The notes under the pieces are model-generated. The model was not told where the DNA came from. It searched no databases and worked only from the letters and a program-made list of their open reading frames with translations. 27,299 nucleotides of DNA from a virus. The position numbers and the translations under genes were made by a program. The DNA is taken from IMG/VR virus record IMGVR_UViG_3300034418_008582, positions 1-27,299 of that record. One strand, 5' to 3'. This document shows positions 695-24,578 of this stretch, in pieces (within the stretch, counting starts at the first letter, position 1; each line of letters opens with the position of its first letter).

Positions 695-871
695 ATGAGC
701 GTCAAAGATATTATTCGTTCCGTGAAAGAGAGAGATCCAGTTTCGTTTCAGGCATCGGTTGAGGCTGAGCTTGCTGCTCGTATGACAGATGCCCTAGACA
801 ACAAGAAGATCGAAATCGCTCAGAGTGTATTTACTCCTGATGAACCAGAAGAGGAACTTACCGATGACTAG
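695..871 (+). CDS. 67: Small prohead core protein, gp67-like
   Basis: A 58-residue acidic protein beginning MSVKDIIRSVKERDP. The ATG at 695 is chosen because AGAGGAG lies 7-8 bases upstream and a late promoter stands just before it; an open frame to 611 exists but would start upstream of the promoter. It has a helical N-terminal half and an acidic tail (DEPEEELTDD). In T4, gp67 is a minor prohead core component and its gene is first in the 67-68-21-22-23 order; the same place and size apply here. The stop overlaps the next start. The assignment rests mostly on synteny, size and the start of the sequence. Confidence 0.7.
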   Translation: MSVKDIIRSVKERDPVSFQASVEAELAARMTDALDNKKIEIAQSVFTPDEPEEELTDD

Positions 872-1376
872 ATTCAAGCAAGTTCGAGAAGCAGCACGAA
901 ATCTTGCCGTCCGCGCAACAGGAGATGATGGCGAAGAGGCAAAGCTAAACGATCTCCCATCGGATCAGTCGCAGCAGGATGATGCTGACGAGAATAACCG
1001 CAACCCTGATGGTTCCGCAGAGGATCAGGTTGAGAAGTCGATCAAGCCGATCTACACCAAGGCCGAAAATGGTGTATATACTCTGAATACTGAGAGTGTT
1101 GAGATTCAGATCACAGAGAATACCATCGACGACATCAAGAAGTTGACAACTCTTTCACAAGCTGGAACAGTTCGCTTTGCTGATGGGTCTTCCGCAAAGG
1201 TGTCACCTGAAACTGCAACAGCACTTCTTCAGACACATGGAAATCTAAACACAAACAACCAGAAAAAGTTTGCCAAGAAGCTCTCTTCATCTGCTTCTGA
1301 GTTTGCAAAGCTGGAGAAGTTTGCTCTTCAGCAAGCTAAACTAACTGGTCGTCTATATGCGTTGAACGATCTCTAG
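864..1376 (+). CDS. 68: Prohead core protein, gp68-like
   Basis: 170 residues beginning MTRFKQVREAARNLAVRA, from the ATG at 864. This start overlaps the stop of the previous gene and has GAGGAA 5-8 bases upstream; the frame is open further upstream but only inside gene 67. The N-terminus is basic and helical, then comes an acidic low-complexity stretch (about residues 20-55), a beta-rich middle and a Lys-rich helical C-terminus. In T4, gp68 is a minor core protein encoded between 67 and 21, which matches this position. Sequence resemblance to T4 itself is weak, so synteny carries most of the call. Confidence 0.65.
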   Translation: MTRFKQVREAARNLAVRATGDDGEEAKLNDLPSDQSQQDDADENNRNPDGSAEDQVEKSIKPIYTKAENGVYTLNTESVEIQITENTIDDIKKLTTLSQAGTVRFADGSSAKVSPETATALLQTHGNLNTNNQKKFAKKLSSSASEFAKLEKFALQQAKLTGRLYALNDL

Positions 1377-1385
1377 GAGAATCCA

Positions 1386-2051
1386 ATGAAGCTAATTAGC
1401 GAACTGACAGAGCAAGTAGAATACATTGTCGAAGAGGTCGAGCTTGCAGAAGGCAAGAAAGAAAAGACCTTTAAGATTCGTGGGCCATTCATGCAGGCTG
1501 AAGTCAAGAACCGCAACGGTCGCATGTATCCAAAGCAAACAATGGTCCGAGAAGTCAACCGCTACAATGACGAGTATGTCAAGAAGAACCGAGCATTCGG
1601 TGAGCTTGGGCATCCAGAGGGACCAACGATCAATCTTGATCGAGTCTCGCATATGATTACAGACATTTCCGAGAATGGAAATGACTTTATTGGAACAGCC
1701 AAGATTTTGGCTACTCCATACGGAAACATCGTTCGTAACCTCATCTCTGAGGGAGCGCAACTCGGTGTTTCTTCGCGCGGAATGGGATCACTGAAGCAGA
1801 ATCGAGATGGTATTCAGGTCGTCCAAGACGATTTCCATCTTGCTACTGCTGCTGACATTGTTGCTGATCCTTCTGCACCCAACGCTTTCGTTCAAGGTAT
1901 CATGGAAGGTCGCGAGTATTGGTATGATGCTGGCACTAACACATGGCGCGTTGAGCAGATGGCAGAGAGCATGAAACGAATGACAGCGAAGGAGCTGGAG
2001 GAGCGCAAGCTCGAAGCATTTACAGCGTACATGAAGTTGCTGCTGAAGTAG
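1386..2051 (+). CDS. 21: Prohead protease (gp21), capsid maturation serine protease
   Basis: 221 residues, close to T4 gp21 (about 212). It matures the prohead by cutting scaffold, core and capsid proteins after Leu/Ile-x-Glu. Visible features include KNRNGRMYP near residue 41, GELGHP with the probable catalytic His76, and GVSSRGMGS near 127-135 with the probable nucleophile at Ser129 or Ser130, all characteristic of the herpes-like prohead protease fold. A downstream Asp-rich VADPSAPNAF segment follows. AGGAG precedes the ATG by 6 bases. A likely cut site in the capsid protein (LHE|A) is present at 3492, and several more occur in the basic protein at 19464-21323. Confidence 0.93.
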   Translation: MKLISELTEQVEYIVEEVELAEGKKEKTFKIRGPFMQAEVKNRNGRMYPKQTMVREVNRYNDEYVKKNRAFGELGHPEGPTINLDRVSHMITDISENGNDFIGTAKILATPYGNIVRNLISEGAQLGVSSRGMGSLKQNRDGIQVVQDDFHLATAADIVADPSAPNAFVQGIMEGREYWYDAGTNTWRVEQMAESMKRMTAKELEERKLEAFTAYMKLLLK

Positions 2052-2111: not shown

Positions 2112-3401
2112 ATGAGCAAGAGAAGTCTTGAAAGCACGATCCGAAATATCGCGGAAGGCGCTGAATCAGGTAAGCCAACGCCAAAGGTTTCAACACCAGG
2201 GCAGCCTGAACTGCCATCTGAAGGTGGAGATCCAGGTAAGGGCGGAAACGATCCAAAGGCCAAGGGTGGAGTCGAAGAGCCAATGAAGGACAAGCTCCTG
2301 ACTGATCCCGAGGACAAGCACGCCGACATTGCAAAAGCATCTAACGCTACATCCAAGGCAGCAAAGCGAAAGGCTGACAAGGGCGGAGCAGAGTCAATGC
2401 AGAAGGTCAAGGAAGAGGAAGAGGTTGAGGATCTTGATCTCGTTGCCGAAGAGAGTGACGAGAGTGACGAGGATGTCGAGATCATCGAAGTGGATGAGGA
2501 CATCTTCAATCTAGTCACAGAGCTTGACGAGGATGAGCTTCGCGCTCGCTATGCAGAGCTTCTTTCCGCAGTCATGGAAGAGCAGAACGATAGCGACGAC
2601 AACGAAGAGATCGCGGAGGAAGAGGTCGCAGAGATTCGACGACGCATCACAGCAGATGACATTGATCTATCTGAGGATGTTGCTGCTATGTTCGACAGCG
2701 AGGATCTTTCAGAGGATTTTCAGACGAAGGCAAAGACCATTTTCGAGGCAGCAGTTCTCGTTCAGGTCAACAACAAGCTCGATGAGCTTGAGGAGTCCTT
2801 CAAGCAAGAACTTGCTGAGTCAATCAACGTCCATGAGACAGAGCTGACTAACAAGATTGATGACTATCTAAACTATGTTGTTGAAGAGTGGATGACCAAG
2901 AATGAGCTGGCTGTTGAGCGCGGCCTACGCGCAGAGATCGCAGAGGAGTTCATTGGTGGTCTTCAGAAGCTCTTCATTGAGAGCTACATCGACGTTCCAG
3001 AGTCAAAGGTTGATGTTCTCGATGAGATGGCAACAGAGATTGATGAGCTAAAGGCTGCCCTCAACGAGCAGATCGAGGCCAACATTGATCTTCAGAACGC
3101 ACGAACTGAAGTTGTCCGTGAGAGCATTCTCATTGATGAGCTTTCAGAGCTTGCTGATAGTCAAATTGAAAAGATTGCTGATCTTGCTGAGAGCGTTCAG
3201 TTCGAGGATGAGGATCAGTATCGAAAGGCGATTAACATCCTGAAGGAGAGCTATCTTCCAAAGGCTGTTGATTTAACAGAAGATGACGACGCAGATGTGG
3301 ACGAGGAGTTCGCACAGACACTTAGTGAGTCTGTCGAGCAACCAAAGCTGGATGACGCTATGTCACAGTACGTTCGCGCTCTGGGTGGTCAGCTCAAGTA
3401 A
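2112..3401 (+). CDS. 22: Prohead core scaffolding protein (gp22)
   Basis: 429 residues, longer than T4 gp22 (about 269), extremely acidic and largely helical. It is the internal scaffold on which the capsid shell forms and is later destroyed by the gp21 protease. Order: a Pro/Gly/Lys-rich low-complexity N-terminus (about 15-65), a Lys/Ala stretch, a block of Glu/Asp runs (about 95-135), then long helical coiled-coil-prone segments to the C-terminus. Many hydrophobic-x-Glu tripeptides could serve as gp21 sites. The extra length is mostly the acidic N-terminal half. AGGAG stands before the ATG, and the gene has its own late promoter. Confidence 0.88.
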   Translation: MSKRSLESTIRNIAEGAESGKPTPKVSTPGQPELPSEGGDPGKGGNDPKAKGGVEEPMKDKLLTDPEDKHADIAKASNATSKAAKRKADKGGAESMQKVKEEEEVEDLDLVAEESDESDEDVEIIEVDEDIFNLVTELDEDELRARYAELLSAVMEEQNDSDDNEEIAEEEVAEIRRRITADDIDLSEDVAAMFDSEDLSEDFQTKAKTIFEAAVLVQVNNKLDELEESFKQELAESINVHETELTNKIDDYLNYVVEEWMTKNELAVERGLRAEIAEEFIGGLQKLFIESYIDVPESKVDVLDEMATEIDELKAALNEQIEANIDLQNARTEVVRESILIDELSELADSQIEKIADLAESVQFEDEDQYRKAINILKESYLPKAVDLTEDDDADVDEEFAQTLSESVEQPKLDDAMSQYVRALGGQLK

Positions 3402-3491: not shown

Positions 3492-4847
3492 ATGTATCTT
3501 TCAGAGGAACTACAGACAAAGTGGGCCCCTGTTCTGGAGCATGAAGACATGCCAAAGATTACTGACCGCTATCGAGCGGCAGTTACGGCGGTTCTTCTTG
3601 AGAACCAGGAGCAGGCTATTCGTGAGCAGTCGCTACATGAGGCACCGGCCAATGCAATCGGCCCGAGCGCAGCGGGAGCAACAAATATTGCTACATACGA
3701 TCCAGTTCTCATTTCGCTCGTTCGACGCGCAATGCCAAACCTGATCGCATATGACATCTGCGGCGTTCAGCCAATGACAGGACCAACAGGCCTGATCTTT
3801 GCGATGTATTCTCAGTATGCACCGCTTACAGCATCAGCCGACGATGCTGGATCACGAAACACCAACGAAGCTCTGTTTAATGAGGCTAACACTACGTTCT
3901 CTGCAACAGACTTCCCAGAAGGTAATCTTGGTACACCTGCTGTTCATGCGGGATCAAACTCACTTCTTGATTCTGCCGTCACTCAGGGTGGTATGACTAC
4001 AGCGAATGCAGAAACTCTTGGTGATACTAATGCCCAGATTGCTGAGATGGGATTCGTCATCGACAAGGTGACAGTCACAGCCAAGTCGCGAGCCCTCAAG
4101 GCAGAATACACAGTCGAGCTTGCTCAGGATCTCAAGGCCATTCACGGTCTGGATGCTGAGACAGAGCTTGCTAACATTCTGTCCGCTGAGATTCTTGCTG
4201 AGATCAACCGAGAGGTTGTTCGCACAATCAACAAGTCCGCTACACAAGGTGCAGCAACAGGAACAGCAACCACAGGGCAGTTCGATCTCGATGTTGATGC
4301 CAACGGACGATGGAGTGTTGAGCGATTCAAGGGAATGATGTTCCAACTTGAGCGCGAAGCAAACCAGATCGCCAAGTCAACTCGACGCGGGAAGGGCAAC
4401 CTCATCATCTGCTCGTCAGATGTTGCTTCTGCTCTTTCGATGGCTGGTCTGTTGGATCACACTCCAGCACTCTCGGACAACCTGAACGTCGATGACACGG
4501 GCAACACTTTCGCTGGTGTTCTCAATGGTCGATTCAAGGTCTTTATTGATCCATACTTTTCTGACAGCAATGGTGAGGAATACTTCACCGTGGGATACAA
4601 GGGATCGAGCGCATATGACGCTGGGCTCTTCTACTGCCCATACGTTCCGCTCCAGATGGTGCGAGCCGTTGGTGAGAATTCGTTCCAGCCAAAGATCGCC
4701 TTCAAGACTCGCTACGGAATCGTCCAGAATCCGTTTGCGACAAGTGAGGGAACGGGTGCTGTAGACGCAAACCTTGGCACTACAAACAATATTGCTGCCA
4801 ACGTCAACGTCTACTATCGAGCAGTTCGTGTGTTCAACCTCATGTAA
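3492..4847 (+). CDS. 23: Major capsid protein precursor (gp23)
   Basis: 451 residues, HK97-fold capsid subunit of the T4 family, shorter than T4 gp23 (about 521). The start is helical, then PVLISLVRRAMPNLIAYDI and GVQPMTGPTGLIFAMYSQY at about residues 80-110 are hallmark gp23 sequence. The end, with YYRAVRVFNLM, is also typical. A gp21-type cleavage site, SLHE|APAN, lies after Glu50, so the mature shell protein would begin at Ala51. AAGGAG lies before the ATG. The gene has its own late promoter, a leader hairpin and a strong terminator just behind it, as expected for the most abundant late protein. Confidence 0.97.
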   Translation: MYLSEELQTKWAPVLEHEDMPKITDRYRAAVTAVLLENQEQAIREQSLHEAPANAIGPSAAGATNIATYDPVLISLVRRAMPNLIAYDICGVQPMTGPTGLIFAMYSQYAPLTASADDAGSRNTNEALFNEANTTFSATDFPEGNLGTPAVHAGSNSLLDSAVTQGGMTTANAETLGDTNAQIAEMGFVIDKVTVTAKSRALKAEYTVELAQDLKAIHGLDAETELANILSAEILAEINREVVRTINKSATQGAATGTATTGQFDLDVDANGRWSVERFKGMMFQLEREANQIAKSTRRGKGNLIICSSDVASALSMAGLLDHTPALSDNLNVDDTGNTFAGVLNGRFKVFIDPYFSDSNGEEYFTVGYKGSSAYDAGLFYCPYVPLQMVRAVGENSFQPKIAFKTRYGIVQNPFATSEGTGAVDANLGTTNNIAANVNVYYRAVRVFNLM

Positions 4848-17822: not shown

Positions 17823-19424
17823 TTGACTGAGGAAATCCAAGACACTATCACGGTGAACGCTGAAGAACTCAGAGAGTTGCATCAGGAACACGCACACAGT
17901 GTTGCCATGAATCAGAGACTTGAGTATCTGCTTCAGCAAGCAAAAGTCAAGCTGGCGGAGATGAAGGATGAACTTGAGCGATTGAGTAATCCTCCGAATG
18001 TGTATGCTTCATTCCTTCACATGAACGATGATGGGTCGGCTGAAGTAATCGCAAATGGAAGACGAATGCGATGTACCATTTCAAATCACATACCGATTGA
18101 AGAGTTGCATCGTGGGCGTTATTTGATTATGAACGAGCAAATGGTTGCTATTGCCATTGGCCCTTACGCTGATGCTGGTGAAATCTGTAAGGTGCTTGAG
18201 GTACTTGACGATCGACGACTTGTTATTGAAGGGCGTCTCGACGAGAGAAAGATCATCTATTTGAGGGATGGGCTCAAGGTAGAGGATCGCCCACTCAAGC
18301 CAGGTGATGAAGTTCTCGTTGATCCTACAAGCGCAGTTGCTATGGAATATGTGTATAAGGTTGACGAGAAGGACACTCTACTCGAAAGCGTTCCTGATGT
18401 GACATATGATAAGATTGGTGGAATTGACGATGCGATTGAAATTGTTCATCATAGCGTCGAACTACCATACAAGCATCCTGATGTGTTCAAGGAGTTTGAA
18501 CTTGATGCACCCAAAGGTATTCTTTTGTATGGTCCGCCTGGATGCGGAAAGACATTGATTGCAAAGGCTATCGCAAACAGCCTGGCAAAGAAGGGTGGTG
18601 TATCACAATTCATCAACATCAGCGGTCCCCAACTTCTCACCAAATGGGTGGGTGAGTCGGAGCGACGTATCAGAGAAGTGTTCAACAAAGCGCGAGAGGC
18701 TGCGACGCCTGAAAGCCCTGTTGTGATCTTCTTTGATGAGGCAGAGAGCTTGTTTCGTATGCGCGGATCAGGTAAGTCATCTGATATGGAAAGCACAATC
18801 GTTCCTACACTATTGGCTCAGTTGGATGGTGTTGAAGGGCTTGAGAATGTGTTAGTTATCTTTGCGTCCAACAGACAAGATTTGATTGATCCTGCTGTTC
18901 TTCGACCTGGGCGCATTGATATTAAGATCAGATTGTCACGACCTGATCGAGATGCTTCAAAGAAAATCCTTAGTGTGTATTTACATCCTGGGCTGCCTAT
19001 TGAGGGTGATCTGGATTCTATTCTGGATAAAACTATCGACTATTTGTTTGAAGAAGCACCTAACAAAGAGTTCCTTGAGCTGGTGTATAGTAAGGGGACG
19101 AGAGAAACTTTATATTTTAAGGATTTCTTATCAGGAGCGATGTTGGAAAACATTGTTGCTCGGGCTAAGAAACTCGCAGTTCTTCGTCGAATAGAAGGTG
19201 AAACAACAGGCATCACTACAGAAGACATGATTACTGCTGTGGATCAAGAGTTCCATGCAACACGAGATTTGCCAAACACAAGTGATGTGTCTGATTGGCA
19301 AGCAATCACTGGGCGTAATAACGGTGAAGAGATTGTTAAGATCCGATCGCTTGTTCAAAAGAAGGAAGCAGAGGAAAAGAAACCGAAAATGATTGAAGAT
19401 GCTGCCACCGGGCAATATCTCTAA
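17823..19424 (+). CDS. mpa: Proteasomal ATPase Mpa/ARC homologue with C-terminal GQYL docking motif
   Basis: 533 residues from TTG 17823, 7 bases behind AGGAG (M. tuberculosis Mpa about 609). Domains in order: N-terminal coiled coil that binds Pup (about 10-55), two OB-type barrels (about 60-180), AAA+ domain from about 192. Walker A GPPGCGKT (237-244), pore-loop KWVGE (274-278), Walker B FFDE (303-306), sensor ASN (348-350) and arginine finger RPGR (361-364) are all intact. Near the end DLPNTSDVSDW resembles the conserved pre-C-terminal segment of Mpa. The last residues are TGQYL, the tail that inserts into the 20S core and opens its gate. It should unfold pupylated proteins for a proteasome. 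No 20S subunit genes are in the window, so the host core would be used. Confidence 0.95.
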   Translation: MTEEIQDTITVNAEELRELHQEHAHSVAMNQRLEYLLQQAKVKLAEMKDELERLSNPPNVYASFLHMNDDGSAEVIANGRRMRCTISNHIPIEELHRGRYLIMNEQMVAIAIGPYADAGEICKVLEVLDDRRLVIEGRLDERKIIYLRDGLKVEDRPLKPGDEVLVDPTSAVAMEYVYKVDEKDTLLESVPDVTYDKIGGIDDAIEIVHHSVELPYKHPDVFKEFELDAPKGILLYGPPGCGKTLIAKAIANSLAKKGGVSQFINISGPQLLTKWVGESERRIREVFNKAREAATPESPVVIFFDEAESLFRMRGSGKSSDMESTIVPTLLAQLDGVEGLENVLVIFASNRQDLIDPAVLRPGRIDIKIRLSRPDRDASKKILSVYLHPGLPIEGDLDSILDKTIDYLFEEAPNKEFLELVYSKGTRETLYFKDFLSGAMLENIVARAKKLAVLRRIEGETTGITTEDMITAVDQEFHATRDLPNTSDVSDWQAITGRNNGEEIVKIRSLVQKKEAEEKKPKMIEDAATGQYL

Positions 19425-19463: not shown

Positions 19464-21323
19464 TCATCGGTTCACTATAGGCCTAGGGCGTCTTAGTCTT
19501 CTTCTCATTCGTCTTCGTATTCTTTTTGCGAGTTCAGTAGTTCTGCTTTGAGTTTGCCCAGCTTTTGATGCACGTCTTTCTGCGTGTTTCTGCAATGTTT
19601 TTTGCTGAAAGTTTCCTTGTGTTGTTCGCACAACATTGGGACGAGGCTTAGCAGCAGAAATCTCTTCACTTCGCATACCACGAACTTTGTTGCCGTAATC
19701 ACGAGCCTTGGTTCGTGCTAGTCGCTGCTTGGCAACCATGACACGCTGCTTGGCTTGATCAACTCGTTCCTTGGCTGCATCAACATTCTCATCCATTGAA
19801 GGGTTGATCTTTACATCCTGCTTACCCTTCTTACGTTCAGCCTTGTGAGCAGCACGCTTCGTGTCCTTGAGCGACTTCGTTCCAAGATACTTCTTCTCGA
19901 ACTTCTGAACATTCAGCTCACGCGATGGCTTCGTGCGACCGATCATTCCAGCTTCATCAACCTGCTCGATGTCTTCGCGAACACGACCGAACTGATCCTT
20001 GTTGCCAAAATGCTTGACAGCTTCGCGAGACTTGGCAGAAGCAGCATAGTGCTTTTGCTTTGCCGCTTCCTTCTGCTTTGCCTGATCCTTTTCACGAGCA
20101 GCAGCAGCACGAGCGATCTTTTCTAGTCGATCTGACTTGGCTTCTCCCATCTGTCGTCGCTTCATGTCATCGACAAGATCAGAAGCACGCAATCCACTCA
20201 CAGGCTTGTCGCCTCGAACCTTGCGACCAAGCTCTCGAATCCTCATACGAGTTTTCATGGGAACCTTGGACATTGGCATGTCGCCATACTGCTTCATCAG
20301 CTTGCTGTATTCGGACTTGGCTTCATTGACCTGCTGGAGCTTTGCCACTGCCTTCTCTGCTCCAGAGAAATTAGCGGTGTTCCGTAATGAATAACGCAGT
20401 TTCTCAGGTGAATCAAATACATTCTTCAAACCACTCTTGGCTTTCCAATAGTATTGGACTCTTCCTCCGCGCTTTACCTTTCCAATCTCAACGGCATCTC
20501 CACCACTAACCTTGATGGTTGTGGATGTGGAATCTCCCTTGGCTTCCTGCATACTACGGTGAGTGCTTGAGTAAGTATTCAACTCATATGGATTTGAACC
20601 ACCTTTGTTGTATACTTGAATGTGTATCTGGTGCTTCTTACCGGATTTGTGAGTAGCAGGAACCTTTACTGAAGTAGTCTTACCTTCGCCCGGCTTTTTG
20701 GAGTTTAGACCAATGTGGTGCATTTTGTCATCATCAGATGAACGTAGTCCACTCTTTGCGTGGTGAGCAAATGCGTGCTTTACAGCATCAGTGTATGACT
20801 TGTGATATAGTTTATAGTCTGATCCACGAGCCTCTTCGACCTGCTCGACATCAGGATCAAAAGAAGCATTGATCTCCTGATTCCTGAACGCACGCTTTGA
20901 ATAGAAAGCATTCGGCTGAATGCGTCGTCTTTCCCCACCTTGCTTCAGACCGGGATTGTTGCGAAGATGCTGCTCCCGATCGCGCTTCTTCTTTGCGAGA
21001 TACTGTTGGTATCGTTCAACCTTCTTCTCATGCGCTGTCTTACCAACATGAGGCTTGTCAGGATTCTTTGGTCCAGACGGAGGAGTTGCCTCGTCGATTC
21101 TCTTTTTCAATATGACCTTCTTTGTTCTCACCTTAGCGTCCTCCTGTCCGGGGGTATCGTTTTTGTATTTATCTGTCAGTTTGTTTGTGCCCCACTCACC
21201 AGCACCGTGTTCTTCTTTGAACTGCTTATTTGCTGTTGCGTATAGCACACGCTCCCAATCAGCACCATATCGCTTCTTGAAAGCTGCCTTGTTCTTGAGT
21301 ATAAAGCGTTCTTTACGATCCAT
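19464..21323 (-). CDS. Large, very basic virion-type protein with repeated prohead-protease-like cleavage sites
   Basis: 619 residues, extraordinarily rich in Lys, Arg, Ala and Gln, with a poly-Arg tail (RRRMRRRLRRPRP). The start, LKNKAAFKKRYGADWERVLYAT, is like the N-terminus of virion-associated structural proteins in T4-like marine phages. Hydrophobic-x-Glu|Ala sites recur: RIDE|A (78), QVEE|A (164), SMQE|A (260), QVNE|A (334), QMGE|A (394) and QVDE|A (457), dividing it into segments of about 60-100 residues. These match the gp21 cutting rule, so it may be an internal head protein cut into DNA-binding pieces. ATG 21323 directly follows the fibre stop (TAAATG). An internal late promoter plus GTG at codon 65 may give a shorter form. 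Confidence 0.8.
   Translation of the reverse strand: MDRKERFILKNKAAFKKRYGADWERVLYATANKQFKEEHGAGEWGTNKLTDKYKNDTPGQEDAKVRTKKVILKKRIDEATPPSGPKNPDKPHVGKTAHEKKVERYQQYLAKKKRDREQHLRNNPGLKQGGERRRIQPNAFYSKRAFRNQEINASFDPDVEQVEEARGSDYKLYHKSYTDAVKHAFAHHAKSGLRSSDDDKMHHIGLNSKKPGEGKTTSVKVPATHKSGKKHQIHIQVYNKGGSNPYELNTYSSTHRSMQEAKGDSTSTTIKVSGGDAVEIGKVKRGGRVQYYWKAKSGLKNVFDSPEKLRYSLRNTANFSGAEKAVAKLQQVNEAKSEYSKLMKQYGDMPMSKVPMKTRMRIRELGRKVRGDKPVSGLRASDLVDDMKRRQMGEAKSDRLEKIARAAAAREKDQAKQKEAAKQKHYAASAKSREAVKHFGNKDQFGRVREDIEQVDEAGMIGRTKPSRELNVQKFEKKYLGTKSLKDTKRAAHKAERKKGKQDVKINPSMDENVDAAKERVDQAKQRVMVAKQRLARTKARDYGNKVRGMRSEEISAAKPRPNVVRTTQGNFQQKTLQKHAERRASKAGQTQSRTTELAKRIRRRMRRRLRRPRPIVNR
21166..21173 (-). promoter_or_regulatory. 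Candidate internal late promoter within the basic virion protein gene
   Basis: GATAAATA on the minus strand, the same variant as at 4913. It is followed by AGGAGG (21145-21140) and an in-frame GTG (21131, codon 65) 8 bases further on. Distances match those of the other late promoters. It lies inside codons for DKYK, so chance is possible. Confidence 0.45.
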
Positions 21324-24300
21324 TTAGGGTTCCACAGTTCCTTCTGCCGTCCAAGTACCTGATCTTCCAAGAACATACCAAGTATTCCGAGTTCCTGATG
21401 GATTGGCTGCAAGAAGACATACAAAATCAGAAGGCGAACCACTTGACACCAATGCGGGCGGCGTCATCCCGTCTTGTCCATAACGAACACCATTCAAATA
21501 GATAGCTGGCCCAAGATATGGTTTGATACGGAACACCCCTGTTGTGGTTGCCTGAAAACAAACATTTTGGCCTGAGCGAAAGCCCGGCGTGGTGGCCCCA
21601 AGGTTTATTTCTCCTCCAGAATCATTGACAAAATACCACTGCCCTTTTGGATTAAACACAGTATTACCCATTAATATTGTTTCAGTTTCAACTAAACCTT
21701 GAATTGTTCCTCTGGCTAAATCAATACCTGGAGTCCCTGTAGTATCATCAATAATAGGAGCGTTCAGTAATATCGGTTCATTATTAGTGATATAGTTCTT
21801 TTCGACTCCACCAGCACTAACTCTATCTACGATTTGAAGTTCTGGTACTGTGGTAATGTTCCTTCCCAAATGCCAGTTAAGGTCACACCCAATATATCCA
21901 TTTGTATTACCACACACTAATTGCATGTTAGCATCAAGATTATTGTCAACATCATTACCTCTATAAAGAGCGGGATAGCCTCCTCCTGAGGGGAAACCAG
22001 CATCGAAACCTCTTGAGTCAAATCCGAAAGCATTTCCCGCTCTAATATTCGAGAAGAAGGCAAGACCAGTCTCGCCGATGGACCAGTCAGAAAGTGCCTC
22101 ATGCGGTCGAATAGCATCAGCATAAACGGTGCCATCGGAATCAACGGTAAATAATGGATCGTTTGCTATTGCTGTTTGTTTTCTATCAACTCGGAAAACA
22201 GGAGCATCTGTTAATGGATCGGTGCCGGAGTCTGGATGTGCTGTAACCACCAGAGGAGTCTGATTCTTATCTTCTGAAGCAACAATGACTGTAGGTACAA
22301 GGCTGAGGCTGGTCCTATACTGAATCTGTGGATCGAATGGATTTTGATCGCCGATGAGAGCCTTATTCAAAGATGCGTCACCAAGATTACTTATCGACCA
22401 TGTAGGGTTTACAGGAGTGTTGTCTGTTATCGAATCAAAGATGGCTGCTCCGTTCGTTGGAATGCTCCAGTTGGTGCCTGGTCCGGTGATGTCTTGAATG
22501 GCCTCAGTCCGAATAACACCATTCTGAAAAATCTGAGTAGTTTTAGTGCCGGCGGCGCCGCCACTTTCTACCTCAAATACAGGCATCGAGCCACCCTGAT
22601 CGGCCGCCCCTTTGATCAACAGTTGTCTCTGATTCACCTCTCCACCAATCTTGATCGTAGAATTGGTGCCTGCTATATCAGCCCCGATAATCATTTTATC
22701 AAACACAGCCTGGCCATTGGTATTGATAAACCACGTTGATGGGCTGCCCGAGTCACCAAGACTTGTAAAATACCCCTCTCCCCCGTCTTGTATTCTCCAG
22801 TTATTCTCGGTGGCTTCTATATCAGACAGAGCCCTGGCTTTAGCCACACCAACATTATCTACAGAAAATACTGGAGTTCCTGAAGTAATACTAGCTTCTG
22901 GATTTGTCGCATCAGTCTTACCTCCAGAAGAGACAACAAAAACAGGAGATTCTTGACCTACAGCCACCGCGTCGATCGTTTCTGGAGCCCCTTGAACAAC
23001 TAATTGACGCTGATTTGCATCACCCCCGATCATTACTCTCCCCGAAGGATTCGTAGTCGTCCCAACATTCAATGTGTTATTAAGAACGGTAGCGCCAGGT
23101 ACCGTTAATCCACCTGTGACGGTAATCGCACCGGAAAGTAATGTGCTTAACACTCCATTCTCACACTTCTTTATTATACCTTCACTAGCATCAAAGAAAA
23201 GTCCACCGTTTGTTCCAAACTGGGATACACAATCATCAGCTTTTCCGTCTGCGGGGTTCGCGTCAGTAGCTTCAATCACATCTCCAGCGACAAACTCAAC
23301 GCCCGTGTTTGGTACAACAAGCTGTGTTGTTAAGTCACCAAGAGTAGTAATATTTCCGCCTTGCACATCAAAAACAAATGTCCCTGCCGGTGGATTTCCG
23401 GTAGGGACATTTATGTGAACCGTTGAAGAATCTCGAAGATCAAGAGTGGCCTCCACTCCACCATTATTTATTTTAACCGCTGATGATCCTGCTAGTTTAG
23501 ATGCACACTTCCAAACTCCCGGGCCACTATTAGCCTCGTCGTCCCATTCAAGAATCTCTGTATCAGCACAACCTTGAAGCAATGCTAATCCTTCTGTAGC
23601 TGTGAACTCAAGCCCAGATAGACTGGAGGTTGTTCCGGTACCGTCTATTGTTCCATTTAATTTGACATTGAGTGTCGCTGTATCTGGACTCACACTATCA
23701 TTATAGGTTATGCCTACTCCGTTTCCCTCAAGGAAGTTGACACCATTTGCATCCGTGATTTGATTACTTTTAATCAACACCTGATCTGCATCAACATCAC
23801 CCGCTTCCAGATCAGTTGTAGTTCCAGCTTGACACTTTTTAAATATTGTACCGTCGAAGTATATACTACCTTGACCTGAGCTGCATGTTGTCGTGACCCC
23901 GCTCGTGAATTTGACACCACCATCACTTAAAGTCAACGCTCCGTTAATCTCTGTTGCTGTCAGTGTACCAACGCTCGTGATAGAGGACATAGCAATCTGC
24001 CCTGAGATGTTGTTAGGAGTCTGAGTAGACTGAACAAAGTCAACATCAAGAATTCCTGCTCCACCAGATCCCGTTATAAAGTTAGGTAAGGCTATAGTGT
24101 TTCCACCATCAACTGTTAGTGTGCTTCCACCTCCACCTCCAGCGCCACAACTCCAGGCTCCGCTGGACGATGTGAGAACCTGCCCATCAGCACAAGTTTT
24201 TAAGAGCGTCAATGCTCCATTGTTGAATTGCAGCCCTGAACCAGTATCCAATGTTATGTTTATTGTTACATCTTTCGGGCTGTTAGCTCCTGTTAAATCA

Positions 24301-24578
24301 AATAGTATACCATCTCCATCTATTAGATTTATTCCGGTATAATCACTACCTTGTATATTAACAGCATCACCGCCAGCGGAGGTTATGGTCAATAATTCTG
24401 ATTTAATATCGTTAAACGCAGTATCAATTTGATTCATGTGCGTTGATGTGATTCTATCACCGCGTTGGAAACCATCACCTTGACCAGAGAATCCAGTCCA
24501 ACTTAGTGCATTGACTAGCCCCGGAATCAAACTAAATACTGTCAGAAGCGCAAGTGCCAGAGGCATCGTTCGTCTCAT
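21324..24578 (-). CDS. Long fibre-like structural protein with N-terminal signal-peptide-like segment
   Basis: 1084 residues. It starts MRRTMPLALALLTVFSLIP, a hydrophobic N-terminus that looks like a Sec signal or membrane anchor ending near LVNA-LSW. The rest is Gly/Thr/Asn/Asp-rich beta structure. There are Cys-containing blocks (TCADGQVLTSSSGAWSC, GCADTEILEW...WKC), a Gly run, and diverged repeats such as IGGDANQRQLVVQG and IGGEVNQRQLLIKG, with recurring W-x-I..G.A.F units. The C-terminus (YVLGRSGTWTAEGTVEP) resembles fibre tips. It probably trimerises and binds host surface structures. AAGGAG precedes the ATG, with a late promoter variant 34 bases upstream. A secretion signal on a virion fibre is unexpected. 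Confidence 0.8.
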   Translation of the reverse strand: MRRTMPLALALLTVFSLIPGLVNALSWTGFSGQGDGFQRGDRITSTHMNQIDTAFNDIKSELLTITSAGGDAVNIQGSDYTGINLIDGDGILFDLTGANSPKDVTINITLDTGSGLQFNNGALTLLKTCADGQVLTSSSGAWSCGAGGGGGSTLTVDGGNTIALPNFITGSGGAGILDVDFVQSTQTPNNISGQIAMSSITSVGTLTATEINGALTLSDGGVKFTSGVTTTCSSGQGSIYFDGTIFKKCQAGTTTDLEAGDVDADQVLIKSNQITDANGVNFLEGNGVGITYNDSVSPDTATLNVKLNGTIDGTGTTSSLSGLEFTATEGLALLQGCADTEILEWDDEANSGPGVWKCASKLAGSSAVKINNGGVEATLDLRDSSTVHINVPTGNPPAGTFVFDVQGGNITTLGDLTTQLVVPNTGVEFVAGDVIEATDANPADGKADDCVSQFGTNGGLFFDASEGIIKKCENGVLSTLLSGAITVTGGLTVPGATVLNNTLNVGTTTNPSGRVMIGGDANQRQLVVQGAPETIDAVAVGQESPVFVVSSGGKTDATNPEASITSGTPVFSVDNVGVAKARALSDIEATENNWRIQDGGEGYFTSLGDSGSPSTWFINTNGQAVFDKMIIGADIAGTNSTIKIGGEVNQRQLLIKGAADQGGSMPVFEVESGGAAGTKTTQIFQNGVIRTEAIQDITGPGTNWSIPTNGAAIFDSITDNTPVNPTWSISNLGDASLNKALIGDQNPFDPQIQYRTSLSLVPTVIVASEDKNQTPLVVTAHPDSGTDPLTDAPVFRVDRKQTAIANDPLFTVDSDGTVYADAIRPHEALSDWSIGETGLAFFSNIRAGNAFGFDSRGFDAGFPSGGGYPALYRGNDVDNNLDANMQLVCGNTNGYIGCDLNWHLGRNITTVPELQIVDRVSAGGVEKNYITNNEPILLNAPIIDDTTGTPGIDLARGTIQGLVETETILMGNTVFNPKGQWYFVNDSGGEINLGATTPGFRSGQNVCFQATTTGVFRIKPYLGPAIYLNGVRYGQDGMTPPALVSSGSPSDFVCLLAANPSGTRNTWYVLGRSGTWTAEGTVEP

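Follow-up and report, generated by a model that had tools for sequence, protein, structure and literature searches.

The 619-residue protein P0001, encoded in a 27,299-base record of a T4-like aquatic phage (the window, meaning the whole stretch of DNA analysed here), is probably a modular chain of cargo resembling the internal proteins (IPs) of T4, cut by the protease gp21 in the prohead. This reading builds on the module architecture of the protein, its protease-type sites, the genetic seams that coincide with such sites in relatives, and stand-alone counterparts of its third module, all of which are apparent in the sequences. From these features we infer cleavage of the chain and the retention, injection and function of its pieces. 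Briefly, the prohead core would take up the chain during head assembly, and gp21 would cut it after the Glu of each hydrophobic-x-Glu|Ala site, these sites lying in acidic linkers (consensus E-E-[VT]-[DE]-[LIV]-[DE]-E|[AGK]) that separate the modules. The roughly seven basic products, 60-160 residues long, would stay in the head with the DNA and be injected at the next infection. The linkers would double as cut sites and genetic seams, at which phages and head proteins could acquire, lose and exchange modules. In T4, the injected IPs inhibit restriction enzymes of the host, with a different GmrSD enzyme blocked by each of IP1, IP2 and IP3 (PMC12373910); if T4 IP1-3 and Alt are a guide, the likeliest function of the pieces would be counter-defence or host take-over.

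Aside from P0001, the window encodes gp21, a gp22-type scaffold, gp23 and a gp19-like tube protein (Table 1). The open reading frame that an earlier note on this DNA had placed at 19464-21323 is present there, on the minus strand, and the six [ILMV]xE|A sites proposed in it lie exactly after residues 78, 164, 260, 334, 394 and 457. The site of the same type attributed to the capsid protein was likewise recovered in gp23.

Table 1. Positions of P0001, its modules and other features of the window.
Feature	Position	Strand	Remarks
P0001, 619 aa	19464..21323	-	ATG at 21323, stop 19464-19466
Module 1 (residues 1-78)	21090..21323	-	Ends at IDE|A
Module 2 (79-164)	20832..21089	-	Ends at EQVEE|A (site VEE|A); extra 65-aa module at same site in L001
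Module 3 (165-260), 'Y[EDK]LYHK' domain	20544..20831	-	Ends at MQE|A
Module 4 (261-334)	20322..20543	-	Ends at VNE|A; related module in L004
Module 5 (335-394)	20142..20321	-	Ends at MGE|A; related modules in L004 and L005
Module 6 (395-457)	19953..20141	-	Ends at IEQVDE|A (site VDE|A)
Module 7 (458-619)	19467..19952	-	Conserved up to 553, Arg-rich divergent tail; MDE|N 512 a possible site
gp21, T4-type prohead core protease	1386..2051	+	Expected processing enzyme; Peptidase_S77, E = 1.8e-36
gp22-type scaffold	2112..3401	+	T4_CASP match
gp23 major capsid protein	3492..4847	+	LHE|A after residue 50, Glu codon 3639-3641
gp68-position core protein	825..1376	+	Probable start at ATG of MTRFKQVRE|A
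Fibre-like gene, 1084-aa protein	21324..24578	-	Directly upstream of P0001; TAA adjoins P0001 ATG, same frame
Mpa/ARC homolog	17823-19424	+	Proteasome-associated ATPase, homology over nearly the full length
T4-type late promoter TATAAATA	664, 2059, 3431	+	Upstream of gp68-position, gp22 and gp23 genes

The strict motif occurs six times in P0001 versus 0.59 expected, six or more copies arose in none of 20,000 composition shuffles, and the P3 residue is hydrophobic in 6 of the 8 Glu-Ala dipeptides of the protein. No excess was detected in the 20 other ORFs of the window that were tested, which hold a maximum of two sites each. A looser motif, in which P1′ may be A, G, S, D or N and F is permitted as well at P3, is found eight times against 2.23 expected (P = 0.0014), the extra sites being VRE|D at 450 and MDE|N at 512. 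The very basic character ascribed to the protein was borne out by 151 Lys and Arg residues versus 75 Asp and Glu, with a pI of 10.3; Cys is absent. Every one of the predicted pieces, which measure 60-162 residues, is basic (pI 9.6-11.7). The proposed piece size of about 60-100 residues stands except for the last piece, which has 162 residues unless MDE|N 512 is also cut.

Searches of Pfam, PHROG and PADLOC with P0001 returned zero matches. The full-length AlphaFold model (pLDDT 55.5, pTM 0.23) is too poor for placing domains other than those for which there are several family members; in this shallow, poor model, sites 334 and 394 sit in predicted helices and not in loops. P0001 starts with MDRKERFILK and carries no N-terminal capsid-targeting tag, its first site lying only at 78. 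A capsid-targeting sequence (CTS) was also searched for 5′ of the start and not found, the upstream stop codon adjoining the ATG in frame, an arrangement that makes translational coupling to the fibre gene likely. The absence of an N-terminal tag weakens the case for gp21-processed cargo, as do the P3 residues of the six sites (I, V, M, V, M and V), with V or M in five; the T4 enzyme prefers L or I at P3 (PMC9026906).

The closest relative of P0001 is an 839-residue homolog on a 73.8-kb IMG/VR contig (L001), in which the gene neighbourhood matches that of the window (fibre gene, chain gene and Mpa-like ATPase). In the alignment of the two proteins the sites retain a hydrophobic P3 and Glu at P1, with P2 and P1′ variable. 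The additional 65-residue module of L001 lies exactly at site 164 (VEQV[DE]E|), and module 6 gives way to two unrelated modules whose boundaries are VDE|N, VDE|A and VAE|A. Residues 554-619, the poly-Arg C-terminus, are replaced in L001 by a tail that is likewise Arg-rich; judged by this alignment, this C-terminal stretch does not constitute a conserved domain. Nucleotide identity between the two loci ranges from 0.98 in module 3 to 0.76 in module 5, as expected if the modules have separate histories.

The modules also recur in other settings. A counterpart of module 6 is one of two modules inserted in the gp68-position head protein of locus L002, and module 6 counterparts also occur in L004 and L005, in which P0001 modules appear in a different order and combination, the L005 copies lying downstream of a cytidylyltransferase domain. 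The GxGEWGTxxLxxKYKxDTPGQ motif of module 1 is shared with L060 and with a 1274-residue chain of L144, a relative that also matches CTP_transf_like (bits just under the cut-off) and DUF5824. Whole modules are thus inserted, swapped and deleted in relatives at hydrophobic-x-Glu sites, in agreement with the chain of basic modules with prohead-protease-type boundaries that the earlier note had proposed. On these comparisons the P0001 chain is not a one-off; it is one case of a broad modular system.

The coincidence of seams and sites was quantified in a set of 106 non-redundant related ORFs, seeded with protein QZI94753.1, the module-3 chain of Methylophilales phage Melnitz, and drawn from 61 IMG/VR loci, many of which match only in part. 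Among 41 distinct insertions of at least 25 residues, 24 had both ends within 5 residues of a hydrophobic-x-Glu site, versus about 2.3 expected by random placement. No enrichment was detected for other P1 residues in the same 41 insertions (hydrophobic-x-Asp 2 versus 1.9, hydrophobic-x-Lys 5 versus 5.8, hydrophobic-x-Gln 0 versus 0.2). E-x-E (26-fold) and non-hydrophobic-x-Glu (3.3-fold) were likewise enriched at seams because the linkers are generally acidic, with a junction consensus of E-E-[VT]-[DE]-[LIV]-[DE]-E|[AGE]. The ends of BLAST alignments displayed the same trend in a blurred form (2.7-fold), and in pairwise comparisons the P1 Glu of sites was retained in 68% of cells versus 52% for other Glu residues, a modest effect. 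In T4, processing of the IPIII tag is blocked, with targeting unaffected, when its final (P1) residue is Asp (PMC9026906), a genetic result that fits the Glu specificity of the seams.

Module 3 served as a test case. A search of IMG/VR with an alignment of its 'Y[EDK]LYHK' domain recovered at least 407 relatives, of which 80 were kept. A host origin of the module was rejected, as the bacterial and archaeal genomes, amounting to 11.3 million contigs, yielded only 3 relatives, all in MAG contigs, which makes it essentially viral. In 66 distinct ORFs among the matches listed, a hydrophobic-x-Glu site lies within 10 residues upstream of the module core in 88% (null 19%) and within 15 residues downstream in 53% (null 25%). 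The neighbours of the module are highly diverse among the matches listed, with 33 clusters for 57 upstream and 25 clusters for 44 downstream neighbours. Consistent with the proposed chain, gp21 is encoded in all 5 of the listed module-3 contigs longer than 130 kb, and in 3 of 13 shorter fragments.

In addition, module 3 exists as a free small protein behind an IPIII-type tag ending at a like site. Such stand-alone forms are found in L114 (MIKLKDLFNE|AKSDY, 115 residues) and L125 (MISLKALLTE|AKF, 113 residues); T4 IPII and IPIII themselves begin with MKTYQEFIAE|A. Module 3 is also the first domain of a longer protein in L151, behind the tag MKSFKQIRE|AKSSSGY, and the first domain behind a capsid-targeting-like tag in L080. 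The occurrence of a free IP-like form and a chain form, with the same site before both, is the strongest single argument that these sequences offer for a polyprotein. The AlphaFold model of module 3 is a compact alpha+beta fold with a pLDDT of 75.7, in which the segments below 50 are both ends, where the sites lie. No relative was found for the module in a sequence search of the PDB, nor did its model match any structure in the PDB or BFVD at E ≤ 0.001. A cyanophage stand-alone 'major head protein' (T4-GC426; L077, 14070-14603) resembles the module inserted in the L001 chain and is, on this resemblance, another pair of free protein and chain module. Within the chain of L044 (3487-6096), residues 602-638 gave a weak, below-cut-off match to the ribosome modulation factor PF04957 (E = 0.00095), possibly a host-shutoff module.

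A link to the virion is provided by cytidylyltransferases of T4-like marine phages, which carry IPIII-type tags (S-SM1 MKKFSAFLNE|A, S-SM2 MKSFFQFLSE|A and Melnitz MKKFSEIIE|A) and in several phages bear chains of modules from the P0001 network. Members of this family have been detected by mass spectrometry in virions of S-SM1 (T4-GC190, PMC3037559) and S-CREM2 (ORF154, PMC10665884), a finding that supports packaging for this class but does not bear directly on P0001. The T4-GC190 protein of Kyanoviridae has an enzyme domain, whereas P0001 is without a recognised one. Kyanoviridae genes between gp41/mazG and gp61/nrdA (L006, 116-4779; L079, 26447-29420) look like tagged head cargo; the tagged products comprise a possible nuclease-like protein (MQGFKTFLSE|A), a DUF6267 protein (MLTLINFSKYITE|D) and a cytidylyltransferase.

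Several known systems share part of this organisation. T4 IPI, IPII and IPIII are, like the members of the P0001 system, small basic proteins with a gp21-type site directly before the mature part, and their gene content is variable and exchangeable between related phages. However, each T4 IP has a separate gene and its own N-terminal CTS of 10-19 residues ending at a gp21 site, whereas P0001 joins many modules in one chain with internal sites and no CTS. Polyvalent proteins of phages and conjugative elements are multidomain, have been proposed to be packaged and injected, as is proposed for P0001, and proteolytic separation of their domains has been suggested (PMC5512222). They contain known enzymatic domains and often an in-chain zincin protease (PMC5512222), whereas P0001 would rely on the head protease, and the two or more disparate known domains that define the class were not found in P0001 by Pfam or PADLOC. 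SPN3US gp53 and other giant-phage head proteins undergo several prohead-protease cuts per protein, as documented by semi-tryptic mass spectrometry in the portion of that report considered here (PMC10052503). In that portion the cuts, at an A-x-E motif, remove propeptides to leave one mature protein, and module shuffling is not reported. A viral polyprotein, in which one ORF gives several functional proteins through a virus protease, is the category that the predicted architecture and seams of P0001 would fit.

Single-CTS internal proteins, gp21 substrates with several sites and polyvalent injected proteins have all been described (PMC9026906, PMC5512222, PMC12373910). In the open-access papers searched, no shuffled cargo chain delimited by prohead-protease sites was found, nor any work linking bacteriophage polyproteins with internal head proteins. 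We consider the odds about evenly poised that the whole system represents combinatorial cargo of T4-like phages infecting aquatic bacteria, with exchangeable effector modules chained on the gp68-position protein, on the cytidylyltransferase and in stand-alone chains, and with each site acting as both cut and shuffling seam. With such an arrangement a single gene could load numerous injected proteins in equal amounts, and the set could be changed quickly. Should protease-cut chains of this kind indeed be used by aquatic T4-like phages, hundreds of unannotated 'hypothetical proteins' could be predicted to be injected cargo, their N- and C-termini exactly defined; cargo function could be tested module by module, and injected proteins could be located in T4-like genomes simply by the site pattern. 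Tailed phages would then offer an example of polyprotein cargo at equal stoichiometry, and mixing and matching cargo in this way would be a new and widespread strategy.

The leading alternative is disposal: P0001 would be part of the prohead core or scaffold, helping to build the core, and gp21 would cut it at many sites so that the fragments leave the head as waste and not as cargo. The T4 core proteins gp22, gp67 and gp68 do resemble P0001 in having several gp21-type sites per protein, and the several fragments into which gp22, gp67 and one more core protein are processed mostly leave the head (PMC9026906). The insertion of a P0001 module into the gp68-position protein of L002 points in the same direction, as does the relationship of the N-terminal domain of Melnitz p20 to the gp68-position protein (blastp 8e-6). 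However, T4 gp22 and gp67 are acidic products of the head operon that are for the most part discarded, whereas P0001 is strongly basic, built of conserved modules and encoded elsewhere, at a locus adjoining a fibre gene; no homology to the gp22, gp67 or gp68 families was found by Pfam or PHROG. Material meant for destruction needs no conserved folds, and module swapping together with stand-alone tagged copies suits cargo, which leaves disposal an unlikely reading.

In second place stands a multidomain protein, in the virion or ejected from it, that stays uncut and has flexible acidic hinges; the hydrophobic-x-Glu pattern would then reflect a recombination-favouring linker and not a protease target. 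The generally acidic linkers and the E-x-E enrichment at seams speak for such a protein, and some of the known polyvalent injected proteins are transferred full length (PMC5512222). Nevertheless, Asp, Lys and Gln at P1 are unenriched at seams, and P3 and P1 are kept between the window and L001. Moreover, the same site ends the tags of the stand-alone copies, and tag removal is a known T4 mechanism (PMC9026906); we consider an uncut protein improbable. That a composition rich in Glu, Ala and hydrophobic residues merely yielded motifs which the reader then picked is barely credible and was rejected by the shuffles and by the seam statistics in independent loci, although the motif is short and degenerate and the loose form is not in general excess across the whole Melnitz proteome (192 observed versus 182 expected).

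Further observations concern the surrounding genes. Three copies of the late promoter were found in the window versus 0.5 expected, and upstream of the fibre/P0001 pair only an imperfect CATAAATA is present as a late promoter. The fibre-like protein has a signal-peptide-like start (MRRTMPLALALLTVFSLIPGLVNA), and its L001 counterpart is very different in length (1305 residues). On the other side of P0001, the Mpa-like ATPase matches 7px9_A over residues 15-533 (phmmer, E = 3.7e-135), has its best phage match elsewhere at 41% identity, and is kept in L001 (12555-14156). Its C-terminal residues are GQYL, which we take to be the proteasome-docking tail of Mpa. An Mpa/ARC homolog with this end suggests that the host of the phage has a Pup-proteasome, perhaps being an aquatic actinobacterium, and that the phage feeds the host proteasome.
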